Origin: Verrucomicrobiota bacterium
GTDB lineage: Bacteria > Verrucomicrobiota > Verrucomicrobiia > Limisphaerales > VHCN01
Direction: 5' to 3'
Assembly (NCBI GenBank): GCA_016871675.1
Contig: VHCN01000012.1
Location: 1-64,000 of the forward strand
DNA: 64,000 nucleotides
Positions 16,022 through 63,673 of this stretch are shown here, piece after piece. A program made the position numbers and the translations under genes. The notes beneath the pieces are model-generated. The model was given only the letters and a program-made list of their open reading frames with translations. It ran no database searches and was not told the DNA's origin. Each line of letters starts with the position of its first letter. Within the stretch, counting starts at the first letter, position 1.

Positions 16022-16504
16022 ATGCAAATCGAGACGGGCATCATCACCATCAGCGACCGTGCGTCGAAGGGGCTTTACGACGACCTCGGCGGCCCCGCGC
16101 TCAAGAAGGCCGCGCTGGGTTACGGTTGGAAGGTCTCCGCTGAATCCCTCGTGCCGGATGAGAAGTCCGACATCCAGCGCGCCGTGCGCGAGCACATCGC
16201 CCGCGGCTGCCATCTCGTGCTCACAACGGGCGGCACGGGCGTGGCGTTGCGCGACGTGACGCCCGAGGCGGTGCGTGACATCGCGGTTCGCGAGCTGCCG
16301 GGCTTTGGCGAGGTGATGCGCGCCGAGTCCATGAAGATCACGCGCAACGCCATCCTCTCCCGCAACCTCGCGGCTGTCGTGGACCGCGCGCTGGTGCTCT
16401 GCCTGCCGGGCAAGCCGGGCGGGGCGGTGGAATGCCTCGGGTTCGTCGTCGGCGCGATCCCGCACTGCGTCGAAGTGCTGCAAGAAGTGCCGACGAGTTG
16501 CTGA
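16022..16504 (+). CDS. molybdopterin adenylyltransferase-type protein (MogA/MoaB family)
   Basis: This 160-residue protein belongs to the MoCF_biosynth family. The markers are GIITISDRASKGLYDDLGGP, LVLTTGGTGVALRDVTPEAV and LPGKPGGAVECL. MogA/MoaB-type enzymes adenylylate molybdopterin before metal insertion. Size and motif set fit MoaB/MogA; the two cannot be separated safely here. No other molybdenum cofactor genes are in the window. The gene is followed by an inverted heptad repeat at 16506-16591. Confidence 0.88.
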   Translation: MQIETGIITISDRASKGLYDDLGGPALKKAALGYGWKVSAESLVPDEKSDIQRAVREHIARGCHLVLTTGGTGVALRDVTPEAVRDIAVRELPGFGEVMRAESMKITRNAILSRNLAAVVDRALVLCLPGKPGGAVECLGFVVGAIPHCVEVLQEVPTSC

Positions 16505-16505
16505 C

Positions 16506-16591
16506 CATTGCCCATGTCCAATCTCCGGTTGCCGGAAGTGCTGACTTCGACGGATCCCCGCCCGGACATTGGCGGTTGGAAATCGGCAATG
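16506..16591. repeat. inverted pair of 7-bp-period repeats
   Basis: The left arm is 16506-16535 and the right arm 16563-16591. The reverse complement of the right arm matches the left arm at 21 of 29 positions. Each arm is a run of heptads of the form NNTNNCC (for example CATTGCC, GATTTCC, AATGTCC). The pair can form a long imperfect hairpin between the MogA/MoaB gene and the next lipoprotein, whose ATG is the last three bases of the right arm. Confidence 0.7.
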
Positions 16592-16933
16592 TTCCCCCTC
16601 GTCCTCCTCGCGTGCGGTTGCGTGTCAGAGTCCGCCTCGGACACGCGCGCGCGCGAGGCGTTTCAGCGCGGACGCAACAGCGTCATCCAGCTCGCGCCCG
16701 TGCCCGTGACGGTCACGGTCGTGGGGCCGGTGAAGCACCGGAGTCTGCTTTGGGCTGATGGCCTGACACTCGCGCGCGCGATCATCGCGGCGGAATACCT
16801 CGTGGAAAAGGAGCCGGGCGTCATCTTCCTGACGCGGGGCGGCCAGACGATGTCGTTCAGCGCCGCGCAATTGCTCAGCGGCGACGAGGGGCCGTTGCTC
16901 AAGCCCGGCGACGTCATCGAAATCCGGCCTTGA
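16589..16933 (+). CDS. small lipoprotein with SLBB-like domain
   Basis: This is a 114-residue protein from ATG 16589, starting MFPLVLLACGC, a short lipoprotein-type signal. The C-terminal part VTVVGPVKHRSLLWADGLTLARAIIAAEYL...GDVIEIRP resembles the SLBB/soluble-ligand-binding fold of polysaccharide export proteins, where GDVIEI(R)P is a common ending. The frame also opens upstream (TTG 16508), but that part is the heptad repeat. No polysaccharide export partners are adjacent. Confidence 0.6.
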   Translation: MFPLVLLACGCVSESASDTRAREAFQRGRNSVIQLAPVPVTVTVVGPVKHRSLLWADGLTLARAIIAAEYLVEKEPGVIFLTRGGQTMSFSAAQLLSGDEGPLLKPGDVIEIRP

Positions 16934-17011: not shown

Positions 17012-18325
17012 CTACACGTTGAGCTCGCGGGCCGGTTGCGCCGGATCCGCGGCGGAATCCGCCTCGGCGAGATAGTCGGCGATGTGCAGGACGCGCACGT
17101 GTCCCGCCCCGGCGCGCGCGAGTCCGGCGCGAATTTGCAGGAGGCAGCCGGGATTCGTGGTGACCACGATGCGCGCGCCCGTGCGGAGGATGTGCTCGAC
17201 CTTGCGCCGTTGCAGGCGCGCGGCCATTTCGGGTTCCGTCAAATTGTAGCTGCCCGCGCTGCCGCAGCAGACATCCGACTCGGCGAGTTCGATGAATTTC
17301 GCGCCCGCGACCGCCTTCACAAGGTCGCGCGGCTGCCGCGTGATGCGCTGCGGGTGCGCAAGGTGGCAGGCGTCGTGGTAGGTGACGGGCGAATGGCGGA
17401 TTGAAGCAGCCCCGTCGCCGGCCTTGGGGACAACCGGCAACCGGCAATCGGCGACGGGCAACACTTCCGTCAAATCCTTCACCTTCGCGCTGAACGCCGC
17501 CGCGCGGTCGCGCCACGCGGGGTCGTCGTGCAAGAGGTGGCCGTATTCCTTGAGCGTCGAGCCGCAGCCGGCGGCGTTGATGACGATGGCGTCGAGGCCG
17601 CGCGGCTCGAAGACGGCGATGTTCCGGCGCGCGCACGCGCGGGCCCCGGCGAGATTGCCACCATGCGCAAAGAGCGCGCCGCAGCACCCCTGCTCCGCGG
17701 GGGTGACCACGTCGAACCCCGCGCGGTTGAGCTGGCGCACGCTGCTTGCGTTGGTTCCGCCGAACATCACGCTCATCACACAGCCGGAGATGAATCCGAC
17801 CTTGCCGCGCGCCGGTTGCGCGACTGCGGGCGATTCGGCGGGCAGCTTGGACTCGCTCGCGTCGTCGGGAATCAGGTCGAGCGCATCCCGCACGAAGCCC
17901 GGGAGCAACGGCGACGCACCGAAGAACTTGACGAGCTTCGCCGGCAGGAGCGCGCGTTTCATCCGCCGCGGGTGCGGGAAGATCTTCTCGATGACGAACC
18001 GCCGCAGCACGCGCTGCAATAAAGGCCGGCGATGATGGCGCTCGATGTGATCACGGGAAGCCTCGAGCAGCGCGCCATATTGCACGCCACTCGGGCAGGC
18101 GGTCTCGCAAGCGCGGCAGCCGAGGCACAAGTCCACGTGGCGCACGGCCGCGCCGTCCGCCGGCAGTCGGCCGGACTGCATCGCGCGCATGAGGTAGATG
18201 CGGCCGCGCGGGGAGTCGTTCTCGTTGCCCGTTTCGAGATACGTCGGGCACGCGCCGAGGCACAGCCCGCAGTGGACACACGCGAGTGCCTGCCTCTCGT
18301 CGAGAAATGATTCCGGGGTGGGCAT
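17012..18325 (-). CDS. glcF: glycolate oxidase iron-sulfur subunit
   Basis: This 437-residue GlcF-type protein passes electrons from glycolate oxidation to the membrane. It has two 4Fe-4S motifs (C16/C19/C22/C26 in CVHCGLCLGACP; C67/C70/C73/C77 in CLGCRACETACPSG). Two CCG domains follow (GCVMSVMFGGTN...EQGCCGALFAHGG and YHDACHLAH...DVCCGSAGSYNL). Residues about 288-315 (VADCRLPVVPKAGDG...) come from a heptad repeat in the DNA (17382-17463) and are not expected in the family. Its start shares one base with the glcE stop (TGATG). The glycolate-binding subunit GlcD is not in the window. Confidence 0.87.
   Translation of the reverse strand: MPTPESFLDERQALACVHCGLCLGACPTYLETGNENDSPRGRIYLMRAMQSGRLPADGAAVRHVDLCLGCRACETACPSGVQYGALLEASRDHIERHHRRPLLQRVLRRFVIEKIFPHPRRMKRALLPAKLVKFFGASPLLPGFVRDALDLIPDDASESKLPAESPAVAQPARGKVGFISGCVMSVMFGGTNASSVRQLNRAGFDVVTPAEQGCCGALFAHGGNLAGARACARRNIAVFEPRGLDAIVINAAGCGSTLKEYGHLLHDDPAWRDRAAAFSAKVKDLTEVLPVADCRLPVVPKAGDGAASIRHSPVTYHDACHLAHPQRITRQPRDLVKAVAGAKFIELAESDVCCGSAGSYNLTEPEMAARLQRRKVEHILRTGARIVVTTNPGCLLQIRAGLARAGAGHVRVLHIADYLAEADSAADPAQPARELNV
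17382..17463. repeat. 7-bp-period repeat inside glcF
   Basis: On the coding (minus) strand, heptads of consensus GRTTGCC run through 17431-17463 (GATTGCC, then GGTTGCC). A second related block (AATCCGC, CATTCGC) lies at about 17382-17405. Because the inserted length keeps the frame, glcF gains about 28 low-complexity residues between its two CCG domains. Confidence 0.65.
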
Positions 18326-35412: not shown

Positions 35413-37926
35413 ATGACCGAGCCCGCCATCACGCCCGCCCTGATCCAGAAGCATAACCTCACGCCGGAGGAATTCTCCAGGCTCAGGGAAATCCTCGGCC
35501 GCGAGCCCAGTTACACCGAGCTCGGCATTTTCTCCGTGATGTGGAGCGAGCACTGCTCCTACAAGAACACGCGGCCCCTGCTGAAGACATTCCCGACCCA
35601 GTCGCCGCGCATCCTCGTCGGCGCGGGCGAGGAGAACGCGGGCATCGTGGACATCGGCGACGGGCTTGCCATCGCGTTCAAGATTGAGTCTCACAACCAC
35701 CCGAGCGCGGTCGAGCCGTTTCAAGGCGCGGCCACGGGCGTCGGCGGCATCGTGCGCGACATCTTCACGATGGGCGCGAGACCGGTATGCGCTGTCAATT
35801 CTCTCAGGTTTGGACCCATCACGGCAAACGGTGTGGCGGGCGAGAACGGGAGCGAGGGTGAAAGGGGCACGCAATCTCCCGCGGCTGACACCTCCCCTGC
35901 TTCCCAGCCCACTTGCTCCCCTGCGGCCACGCCTTCAAATGTGATGACCAACCGCCGTTTGTTCGCCGGCGTCGTCAGCGGCATCGCGCACTACGGCAAC
36001 TGCTTTGGCATCCCGACCATCGCGGGCGAGGTGTATTTCGACAAGAGCTACGAGGGCAACCCGCTCGTCAACGCCTTCTGCCTCGGCGTGCTGCGGCACG
36101 AGCAGATCACCCGCGGCGCGGCGCGCGGCGTGGGCAACCCGGTCTTTTACGTCGGCCCCGCGACGGGACGCGACGGACTCGCGGGCGCGGCATTCGCGTC
36201 GCAGGATTTGACCGACGAATCCGCCGAGCAACAGCGGGGCGCGGTGCAGGTCGGCGACCCGTTCATGGAGAAACTTGTGTGCGAAGCGTGCCTCGAACTC
36301 CTCGCGACCGGCGCCGTCGCCGGCATGCAGGACATGGGCGCCGCCGGGCTCACCTGTTCCACGTGCGAGACCGCGTCGCGCGCCGGCACCGGGATCGAGA
36401 TCGAGCTCGACAAGGTCCCGCAGCGCGCACCGAACATGACAAGCTACGAGATCATGCTCAGCGAGTCGCAAGAGCGCATGCTCATCGTCGTCCACAAGGG
36501 CCGCGAGGACGAGGTGAAGAAAATTTTCAACAAGTGGGATTTGCCGTGGGCGGAGATCGGCGTCGTGACGGACACGGGGCGAATGGTCGTAAAGCATCAC
36601 GGCGCGGTGGTGGCGAACATCCCGGCAAAGGCCATCGCGGACGAATCACCCATCTACCAACGCGAGGCGGTGGAGCCGGCGTATCTGGCCGACGTGCGGG
36701 CGTTCAGGCTCGAAGGCTTGGCCGATGTGACCCATGGGACGGATGCGATCGGGGCGCTGAGGAAGCTGCTCGCCTGGCCGACCATCGCCTCGAAGAACTG
36801 GGTCTATCGCCAATACGACCACATGGTGCGCGACGGTTCCGTCGTTTGCCCCGGCAGCGACGCCGCGGTCATTCGCATCAAAGGCGACTCCGTTCCACAA
36901 GGCCGGCCAGGCGTCAGTGCTTGCGACCCTCCGCACTCCGACATCCGCCCTCCGCAATCAGAGCGCCTCATCGCCCTTTCCGTGGACTGCAACGGCGCCT
37001 ACTGCGCGCTCGACCCTTACGAGGGCGGGAAGGCCGCCGTGGCCGAGGCGTGCCGCAACCTCGCGTGCTCCGGCGCGCTGCCGCTCGGCTCGACGGACAA
37101 CCTGAACATGCCCAGCCCGCTCAAGCCCGAGCTGTTCTGGCAGATCAAGGAAAGCGTGCGCGGCCTCGCCGACGGCTGCCGCGCCTTCAACGCGCCCGTC
37201 ACCGGCGGCAACTGCTCGCTTTACAACCAAAGCCCTGCCGGGCCGATTGATCCCACGCCGACGGTCGCCGTGGTCGGGCTCGTCGAGAAGCCCGAGCACG
37301 TCACGACGCAGTGGTTCAAGGATGACGGTGACGTCATCATCCTGCTCGGCGCGCCGGTGGACACGGCCGACCCGTTGCAAGGACTCGGCGGCAGCGCGTA
37401 TCTGCAAGTCATCCACGGCAAAAAGACCGGTTCGCCGCCCCGGTGCGACCTCGACCAGGCCGCGACACTGCACACGACGCTCGTCGGACTCATCCGCGCG
37501 GGCGGCGTGAAGAGCGCGCACGATTGCAGCGACGGCGGCCTTGCGGTGGCGCTTGCCGAGTGCTGCATCAGCCAGCTCGTCGCGCGCAACACACCCCGGC
37601 TCATCGGCGCGACGGTGGACTTGTCCGGCTTCGGGCCGCAGAGCTCCAGCCCCGCGAGTCCCGGCGAAACGGCGGCCCCGCGCCCCGCTGTCCGCCTCGA
37701 CGCGCTGCTCTTCGGCGAGACTCAGTCGCGCGTCGCGGTGACCTGCGCGCCGCTCGACGCGAACAAGATCATCGAGCGCGCGAAGTTGATGGGCGTGCCC
37801 GCCGCGCGCATCGGCACCGTCGGGGGCGACAAGCTCACCCTCAAGGCTGCCGCGGGCGAATCGACTTGGCCCTTGCCCGGGTTGCACGACCTCTGGTGGA
37901 ATTCCATCTCGCGCGCAATGAGTTGA
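35413..37926 (+). CDS. purL: phosphoribosylformylglycinamidine synthase II (small PurL) with in-frame inserts
   Basis: This 837-residue ATP-dependent enzyme makes FGAM from FGAR. The core motifs are present: [56 protein letters not shown] and [15 protein letters not shown]. Usual small PurL is about 720-770 residues. Two extra stretches explain the surplus. About 40 residues lie between LRFGPI and [10 protein letters not shown] (DNA about 35816-35940, Ser/Thr/Ala-rich). About 20 lie near residue 500 (DNA 36900-36960), made by a heptad repeat. PurQ and PurS are not in the window. Its stop shares one base with the purF ATG (TGATG). Confidence 0.92.
36924..36958 (+). repeat. five heptads inside purL
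   Basis: The stretch 36924-36958 is five consecutive 7-base units of the form CCGNNNT (e.g. CCGCACT, CCGACAT); the first unit is CGACCCT. It encodes the low-complexity [12 protein letters not shown] segment of PurL, between the conserved IKGDSV and [10 protein letters not shown] blocks. Confidence 0.75.
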
Positions 37927-42412: not shown

Positions 42413-43464
42413 ACTGCCGATTGCCGGTTGCCGGTTGCCGATTGAGTTGCGTGGTCGCGTCCGCCGCGATGCATCTCGCGGGTTTCTTTCCGGGCGCCCT
42501 CCGCGCGGCGGAGCCCGCCAGACCCGCGCCGTTTCAAGAGGTGCTTGGGCTCATCCGGTCGAATCTCCCGGGCGCGAAGGCCGAGGAACTCGACCACGCG
42601 GCGTTGCAAGGCCTGCTCGAACGTCACCGCGGCCGCGTCCTGCTCGCGAATGCCGCCTCGGCCGCTGCTTCGGCCGGAGGCATGGCTCGGACAAACGTCT
42701 TCGACGAGGCATTTGCCAGCTTGCGCATCGCGACGGTGGGGGCGGGCTCGGCGGAGCAGGTGCGCGGCGCGTTCGACCAGCTAAACGCCGCGAAAAAACT
42801 CAAAGGCCTCGTGCTCGACTTGCGCGGGGCGAAGGGCTCCGATTATTCGGCGGCCGTCGCGGTGGCGGATTTGTTTCTCGACGGGGAAAAGCCGCAGCTC
42901 GAAGTCGCGGGGAAGACGCTCCGGTCGACCTCGAAAGCGACGGCGATCTCGCTGCCCGTGGCCATCCTCATGAACCGCCAGACCTCGGGCGCGGCCGAGG
43001 CGCTGGCGGCCTTGCTCCGGCAGAATCGCACGGGGCTCTTGATCGGCGGCGTGACCGCGGGCGAGGCGTTTTTGTTCAAGGACTTTCCGCTCAGCACGGG
43101 GCAGCAACTGCGCATCGCGACCGGTTCGGTGCGGCTCGCGGGCGGGGCCGCGCTCACGGGCGATGGCCTTCGGCCCGATGTGCCGGTGCTCGTGAGTCTC
43201 GAGGATGAGCGGTTGTTCATGGAGGACGCGTTTCGCGAGGCGAAGCCCGCCGCCGAGGCGGCCGGACCGCTTGTCAGCGCGAATCCACCGCGCAAGCGGC
43301 TCAACGAGGCGGAACTCGTCCGCCGCCAAAAGGAAGGCGACTCCGGTGACGGGCCCCCTGCGGTTGCGGAGCCTGCGAAGCCGCTCGTGCGTGATCCAGC
43401 GCTCGGCCGCGCGCTCGATCTGCTCAAGGGGCTCGCCGTCGTGGGCCGGGCCCGGCCGCTTTAG
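42409..43464 (+). CDS. S41-like (tail-specific protease fold) protein, catalytic Lys replaced
   Basis: This 351-residue exported protein resembles the core of C-terminal processing peptidases. GLVLDLRGAKGSDYSAAVAVADLF, PVAILMNRQTSGAAEALAALL and a following GLLIGGVTAGEAF are typical. The presumed nucleophile is S193 in TSGAAE. The Lys normally found in the TxGK motif is Glu (E219), so activity is doubtful. There is no PDZ domain. The first 15 codons are a heptad repeat overlapping the purD stop; a start at 42469 (MHLAGFFPGALRAAEP, a better signal peptide) is an equal option. Confidence 0.72.
   Translation: MNCRLPVAGCRLSCVVASAAMHLAGFFPGALRAAEPARPAPFQEVLGLIRSNLPGAKAEELDHAALQGLLERHRGRVLLANAASAAASAGGMARTNVFDEAFASLRIATVGAGSAEQVRGAFDQLNAAKKLKGLVLDLRGAKGSDYSAAVAVADLFLDGEKPQLEVAGKTLRSTSKATAISLPVAILMNRQTSGAAEALAALLRQNRTGLLIGGVTAGEAFLFKDFPLSTGQQLRIATGSVRLAGGAALTGDGLRPDVPVLVSLEDERLFMEDAFREAKPAAEAAGPLVSANPPRKRLNEAELVRRQKEGDSGDGPPAVAEPAKPLVRDPALGRALDLLKGLAVVGRARPL
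42413..42447 (+). repeat. five heptads at the start of the S41-like gene
   Basis: Five 7-base units of consensus RTTGCCG (ATTGCCG, GTTGCCG twice, flanked by ACTGCCG and ATTGAGT) begin one base after the purD stop. They encode CRLPVAGCRLS if the upstream ATG is used. The same GRTTGCC unit occurs in glcF (17431-17463) and beside the MogA/MoaB gene. Confidence 0.75.
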
Positions 43465-62500: not shown

Positions 62501-62555
62501 TTCAGTTTTCAGTATTCAGACCCGGCGGTGTTTGCAACCGCCTGAACACTGAACT
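62501..62555. repeat. inverted pair of 7-bp-period repeats between trx and gspF
   Basis: The left arm has three heptads starting TTCAG (62501-62521). The right arm has CTGAACA and CTGAACT (62542-62555). Over the core 12 bases the arms are complementary with one mismatch. Inside lies a second stem (GGCGGT with ACCGCC). The whole can fold into one hairpin downstream of the thioredoxin stop and may act as a terminator or mRNA stabiliser. Confidence 0.7.
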
Positions 62556-62971: not shown

Positions 62972-63673
62972 TCAGAATCCGATGTGCCGGACGAGGTTCC
63001 CCAAGGCCGCCGCGGCTGCGAGGAACGCGATGATGGCCAGCGCGATGTCCCACTTGCTGGCTTTGCCGGGGACTGCCACCGCAGCTTCCTTCTTCTCCTT
63101 GACCGCGCCCTTTTCACGGCTCGCGGCGGGCAGGACGACGGAGGCCTTCGAGGCGACCGTCGGGGCCGCGGTCTGTGCGACGGGGGCCATCGTGACGGCA
63201 TCGGCGCCATCCGAGGGCATCACGGCGGGGGCCTCGGCTTTCGCCGCGCCCGGCTTGGCTGGCATCGTGGGCTTGGGCGGACCGGCAGGCCTGGCCGGAG
63301 CGGGCGTGTGCTGCAAAGTCACCATCTCCGCGGGGTTGGGAATTTTTACCGTCTTGCTCGCATCATCCACTTGGGGAACGACGAGGCTGATCGTGGGGCC
63401 GGACTGGGGAAGGTTGGGTTTCGGCGCGGCACTGGCGCCCAACGCCGGGGCCGGAGCCATCGCAGGCGCGCCTGGGGCGGGTCGAGGAGGGAGTTCGAGC
63501 CGGACGGTTTCCTTCGCAGCAGGTTTGGGAGGAAGTTCGAGACGCACAGTCTCTTTCGCCGTCGGTTTTGGCGGAAGGCTGATACGAACCGTCTCCTTCT
63601 TGGGCTGAACTTTGGATACCTCGGCCGGTTTTGGCGGGGCAGCTCCGGCCGGCATGTTCAGGTTGTCGGACAT
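62972..63673 (-). CDS. C-terminally anchored Pro/Ala-rich protein with triple TVRL motif
   Basis: This 233-residue protein has three tandem units near the N-terminus: KETVRISLPPKP, KETVRLELPPKP and KETVRLELPPRP (about 26-65). A long Pro/Ala-rich disordered region follows, with one membrane helix at the very C-terminus (about 207-226). The TVRLxLPPKP units look like binding motifs facing the cytoplasm in a tail-anchored protein. No catalytic domain exists. It lies 62 bases upstream of thioredoxin on the same strand. I know of no functional assignment. Confidence 0.65.
   Translation of the reverse strand: MSDNLNMPAGAAPPKPAEVSKVQPKKETVRISLPPKPTAKETVRLELPPKPAAKETVRLELPPRPAPGAPAMAPAPALGASAAPKPNLPQSGPTISLVVPQVDDASKTVKIPNPAEMVTLQHTPAPARPAGPPKPTMPAKPGAAKAEAPAVMPSDGADAVTMAPVAQTAAPTVASKASVVLPAASREKGAVKEKKEAAVAVPGKASKWDIALAIIAFLAAAAALGNLVRHIGF

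Follow-up and report, generated by a model that had tools for sequence, protein, structure and literature searches.

The imperfect inverted repeat at 16506-16591 of the window, the whole 64,000-nt stretch of DNA analyzed here, is probably an old, decayed instance of a heptad-array class that is widespread, dispersed, and frequently organized in convergent pairs, and its insertion or growth would have displaced the start of a lipoprotein gene and supplied it with new codons. The element is placed exactly between a mog-like gene's stop codon and the gene of a small lipoprotein (Table 1). It consists of two ATTGCCN-family arrays that face opposite ways across a short spacer. Array insertion or growth at this junction would have displaced the native start along with the first lipoprotein codons, and the arm sequence would now provide the 5′ leader as well as start or N-terminal codons, read either from ATG 16589 or from ATG 16514 with a 25-residue extension.

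Table 1. Coordinates of the inverted heptad element, its flanking genes, and the other heptad arrays of the window
Feature	Coordinates	Strand	Details
MoCF_biosynth-domain gene (mog/moaB-like)	16022..16504	+	Pfam PF00994, E 1.6e-28; stop TGA 16502-16504
Left arm	16503..16535	+	Units CATTGCC, CATGTCC, AATCTCC, GGTTGCC from 16506; form NNTNNCC
Alternative lipoprotein-frame ATG inside left arm	16514..16516	+	In frame; 9 nt past the mog stop
Spacer between arms	16536..16561		No conserved content recognized
Right arm	16562..16594	-	Reverse strand from 16591: CATTGCC, GATTTCC, AACCGCC, AATGTCC
ATG closing right arm	16589..16591	+	Lipoprotein start in the original prediction
Small lipoprotein-like gene	16589..16933	+	C-terminal L-x-P-G-D-x-I-E motif
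Direct heptad array inside glcF-like coding sequence	17431..17462	-	CAACCGGCAACCGGCAATCGGCGACGGGCAA
Weaker heptad array	36924..36963		CTCCGCACTCCGACATCCGCCCTCCGCA
Direct heptad array	42415..42444	-	TGCCGATTGCCGGTTGCCGGTTGCCGATTG
Second inverted heptad pair	62501..62553		TTCAGTTTTCAGTATTCAG ... CTGAACACTGAA

Pairing of the arms inwards from 16506 and 16591 reproduced the complementarity of the original prediction, with matches at 21 of 29 positions (16506-16534 with 16563-16591), and the best local stem pairs 24 of 33 positions (16503-16535 with 16562-16594). A complement score of 14, that of the left arm, was equalled by only one of 3000 random 120-mers from the same genome, in agreement with the earlier view that the pairing exceeds chance. 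All units had been assigned the form NNTNNCC, which holds for the left arm, whereas the right-arm unit AACCGCC (reverse strand) departs from it. The left arm is clearly heptadic, with a period-7 self-match of 0.60 (shuffle P 1.5e-4) that is equalled by 0.17% of window 32-mers; in the right arm the heptad character is only moderate, with a self-match of 0.48 (shuffle P 0.009) equalled by 2.3% of window 32-mers. When the stem is slid by 7 nt it still pairs at 19 of 27 positions, thus the complementarity of the arms is partly a product of their shared unit. Folding z-scores for the element were -2.5 as RNA and -2.6 as DNA.

The arms had also been expected to covary. This was assessed in four element groups other than the 16506-16591 pair, namely the TTCAGT, Pyrinomonadaceae, Humisphaera, and Lewinella elements (sets of 4-8), and no excess of own-partner pairing was found in any of them. 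Since the arms in these groups pair equally well with the arms of other elements, their stems stem from a shared unit in opposite orientation and not from compensatory change, and the expectation of covariation is unsupported. The arms of the 16506-16591 element would pair mainly through both being built of one heptad in opposite orientation. Its unit family has no second inverted member in the genome.

The junction itself was compared among order-level relatives, a weaker stand-in for close strains, the nearest genomes belonging to other families of the order. In syntenic relatives the mog-like gene is 75-88% identical. The lipoprotein-like gene had no match in a Pfam search; of 58 genomes searched, the own genome included, 26 carry it, and a complete mog adjoins it at nine loci, the present one among them. 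Four relatives (G036, G017, G037, and G009; loci L026, L029, L035, and L038) separate the mog stop from the lipoprotein ATG by 1-7 nt, and here the distance is 84 nt to ATG 16589, nearly all of it within the element. Ahead of the lipobox Cys, about 16-18 residues are present in most relatives, as against 10 from ATG 16589, leaving a signal peptide about 7 residues short. This short leader and the 84-nt gap suggest that the native first codons of the lipoprotein gene are missing and that the element has taken their position. However, the gap could have other origins, given the longer junctions of other syntenic relatives (tens of nt in L039, L045, and L036; >300 nt in L031). The right arm does end in an ATG of the lipoprotein frame, at 16589-16591, as first described; the further claim that the arm supplies the start codon is plausible, with an ambiguity between this ATG and the in-frame ATG 16514.

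Heptad arrays are a feature of this genome at large. In a 463-kb genome sample, which includes the window and was partly drawn from contigs with known arrays so that array densities are biased upward, 25 strong period-7 arrays (threshold, 20/28 matches) were found, against 0-2 each at periods 4, 5, 8, 10, 11, and 13. Periods 6 and 9 were also raised, with 20 and 13 arrays, an excess that codon periodicity would produce, and the six arrays at period 14 are a harmonic. The units vary and include CGGCAAY, TTCAGTN, GTTCAAR, ATTCCGC, GCGTGGC, and ATGGCCG, among others. With one mismatch allowed, CGGCAATCGGCAAT occurs at 22 genome sites and its reversed control at none. The sample holds eight inverted heptad pairs, that at 62501-62553 of the window being one. 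By gene starts from a simple ORF caller, a predicted start lies no more than 60 nt from 15 of 42 arrays (3.6 expected) and a stop no more than 60 nt from 14 of them (3.5 expected), and 16 of the 42 arrays are intergenic (5.1 expected); near-start enrichment is weaker for the strongest arrays alone (5 against 2.1 expected, P 0.07). With period-7 tandem units in both arms, judged by their shuffle P and the genome-wide period-7 peak, and many dispersed arrays in one genome, the element belongs with the heptameric (7-bp) repeat arrays. The original prediction had proposed a search for further period-7 arrays and inverted pairs and had named a lack of further copies genome-wide as the outcome that would speak against it; the class recurs in the genome and in relatives, though no second copy of the 16506-16591 element was found in its genome, where its exact sequence is single-copy.

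Several of these arrays have features of their own. The pair at 62501-62553 is clearer than that at 16506-16591, with TTCAGTN arms and a partly self-complementary spacer. The array at 17431-17462 encodes LPVADCRLPV in the glcF-like gene and is apparently tolerated in frame, and that at 42415-42444 comprises four TTGCCGR units near the point where an open frame is predicted to begin. A repeat finder also reported a tandem array of period 42 with 2.7 copies at 63486-63599 of the window. Two GCGTGGC-type inverted pairs (L197:8788-8882 and L203:17653-17723) have the inner arm ends GCGTGAAG..CTTCACGC in common.

Beyond this genome, other families of the order also have period-7 arrays and inverted pairs, the latter in G026 and G017. 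Across 388 genomes of the phylum, the convergent order TTCAGNNTTCAG..CTGAANNCTGAA (TTCAG..CTGAA) was matched in 52 registers from 23 genomes and the opposite, divergent order in 4 registers from 3 genomes, both counts including overlapping registers. Strict TTGCC..GGCAA pairs numbered one in each orientation in the phylum, too rare for a test. In a bacterial pattern scan, hairpins of the ATTGCC..GGCAAT type with several heptads per arm were found in many phyla, notably in Pyrinomonadaceae, Humisphaera, and Lewinella. Genome G377 carries five near-identical TTCAG..CTGAA hairpins with a common spacer, in both orientations (contigs C36, C132, C241, C269, and C318; example L264); they form a candidate mobile hairpin family, and it seems that some such hairpins spread as whole units. 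Many of the 118 stretches from the scan were not counted as relatives, as they carry a different GGTCAGGTCTTGCCTTTTGCC hairpin, mostly in Proteobacteria. This separate hairpin, GGTCAGGTCTTGCCTTTTGCC..GGCAAAAGGCAAGACCTGACC, is widespread at many Proteobacteria loci (L059-L138).

Chance juxtaposition of compositionally similar stretches, with no repeat history, is very improbable. The right arm would allow it, being matched in heptad content by 2.3% of window 32-mers, but the rarity of the left arm (0.17%), the one-in-3000 complement score, the strong genomic period-7 peak, and the other inverted pairs argue against it. It is also unlikely that the hairpin is a selected functional RNA whose arms are maintained by pairing, for instance one that attenuates or couples lipoprotein translation. 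The fold z-score of -2.5, the location of the start codon within the stem, and the exact placement between stop and start are consistent with such a role; against it stand the lack of own-partner pairing excess in the four other element groups, the absence of an Rfam match for the element, and the lack of conservation in relatives, four of which have a junction of just 1-7 nt. A search for an intrinsic terminator (a GC-rich stem followed by a T run) gave no site at the element, and with both the Rfam and terminator searches empty, the structured RNA family and terminator readings were rejected. In RNA folding, the start region 16575-16591 has a mean P(paired) of 0.83, and blocking 16489-16517, as would a ribosome at the mog stop, lowers this only to 0.72, a small opening that also counts against this role. 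Translational coupling via a ribosome at the mog stop is weakly supported by this calculation, and a regulatory role of the hairpin is possible. For the decayed heptad pair favored here, the predicted long imperfect transcript hairpin would cover ATG 16589 and lower or couple initiation there.

The convergent bias of 52:4 and the five near-identical G377 copies, with arms and spacer in common, would suit a mobile hairpin of the MITE or REP-like kind, inserted whole with both arms by a transposase acting in trans. For the present locus this is improbable, as its sequence is single-copy in its genome, the genome has no Y1 transposase of the RAYT/REP kind, and unit sequences differ widely among elements. 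The search for the Y1 transposase (PF01797, REPIN/RAYT) found none in this genome and was positive in five control genomes, and a REP/RAYT origin was rejected on the missing transposase and the lack of multiple copies. Insertion as a unit is unsupported because the sequence is single-copy and no target-site duplication was seen at the element. A further possibility, tentative but compatible with the favored explanation as a variant of it, is that the element is coding, with translation starting at ATG 16514 and the heptads read as an in-frame N-terminal extension of the lipoprotein. The frame is open throughout, from 16505 into the gene, but because a 28-codon open run has a shuffle probability of 0.43 this is weak evidence for a start at 16514. 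That ATG lies 9 nt after the mog stop, near the 1-7 nt of relatives, and provides a Lys ahead of the hydrophobic stretch, and another heptad array sits within the glcF-like gene; for a lipoprotein signal peptide, however, the resulting leader is long and in part acidic.

Under the favored explanation of a decayed convergent pair, period 7 would arise most simply from the replication-slippage bias put forward in the literature, and the convergent orientation suggests that pairs able to form hairpins arise, or are retained, together. A bolder proposal, and a doubtful one, is that convergent heptad hairpins of many units form one phylum-crossing element class, self-propagating or mechanism-generated and defined by period 7 and orientation instead of sequence, which repeatedly lands at gene junctions and rewrites starts and N-termini. 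The locus alone is minor, and heptad arrays as a class, with a fixed period and a changing unit, represent a long-noticed, unexplained bias. In the genome sample, period 7 is sharply set off from periods 4, 5, 8, 10, 11, and 13 and the arrays gather at gene ends, and the phylum adds one family whose inverted pairs are strongly biased in orientation. This orientation bias is directly testable and separates chance neighbors from a hairpin-based origin.

Among known systems, REP/REPIN elements with a RAYT transposase are likewise short intergenic inverted repeats able to form hairpins. REPs are not known to be built from period-7 units, and the present genome lacks a Y1_Tnp gene. Pairing heptads exist in the Nostoc tRNA-Leu intron. 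Filamentous cyanobacteria (Calothrix and Nostoc) carry heptanucleotide STRRs, which resemble the present arrays in being tandem units of 7 bp scattered through the genome (as cited in PMC4692102); they differ in sequence family and are described mainly as direct arrays. Marine Beggiatoaceae have TAACTGA heptamer arrays mostly just upstream of start codons (MacGregor, 2015, PMC4679880), and heptamer arrays lie by start codons here as well. Those repeats have one dominant forward unit and only one inverted case, whereas many units and several inverted pairs occur here. Slippage growth with a 7-nt bias has been proposed for heptads (Mrazek, 2007, as cited in PMC4679880). In an open-access library, no paper was found on heptad pairs of this kind in this phylum, taken to be Verrucomicrobiota. 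The original prediction knew of no comparable inverted form described in the phylum; as such the form is preceded by two Xanthomonas genomes, where Rehm et al. (2015, PMC4692102) report heterogeneous GGGAATC heptad arrays with convergent pairs numbering 70 and 75, and the pattern scan places pairs in many phyla. The locus is therefore a decayed example of a kind already described, inverted heptad pairs having been published for Xanthomonas in 2015. As in Xanthomonas, the 7-bp units are heterogeneous and mostly intergenic, about four units per array are typical, and convergent arrays lie close together (PMC4692102); the element likewise has two close arrays of one unit family, and seven other pairs occur in the sample. 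In contrast, the 16506-16591 pair belongs to another phylum and shows much stronger decay, and its unit is GATTGCC/CGGCAAT, GG-only at best (CGGCAAT type), whereas GGGAATC has the G-tracts that make it G-quadruplex capable. Thus, the two are of the same kind and not of the same family.
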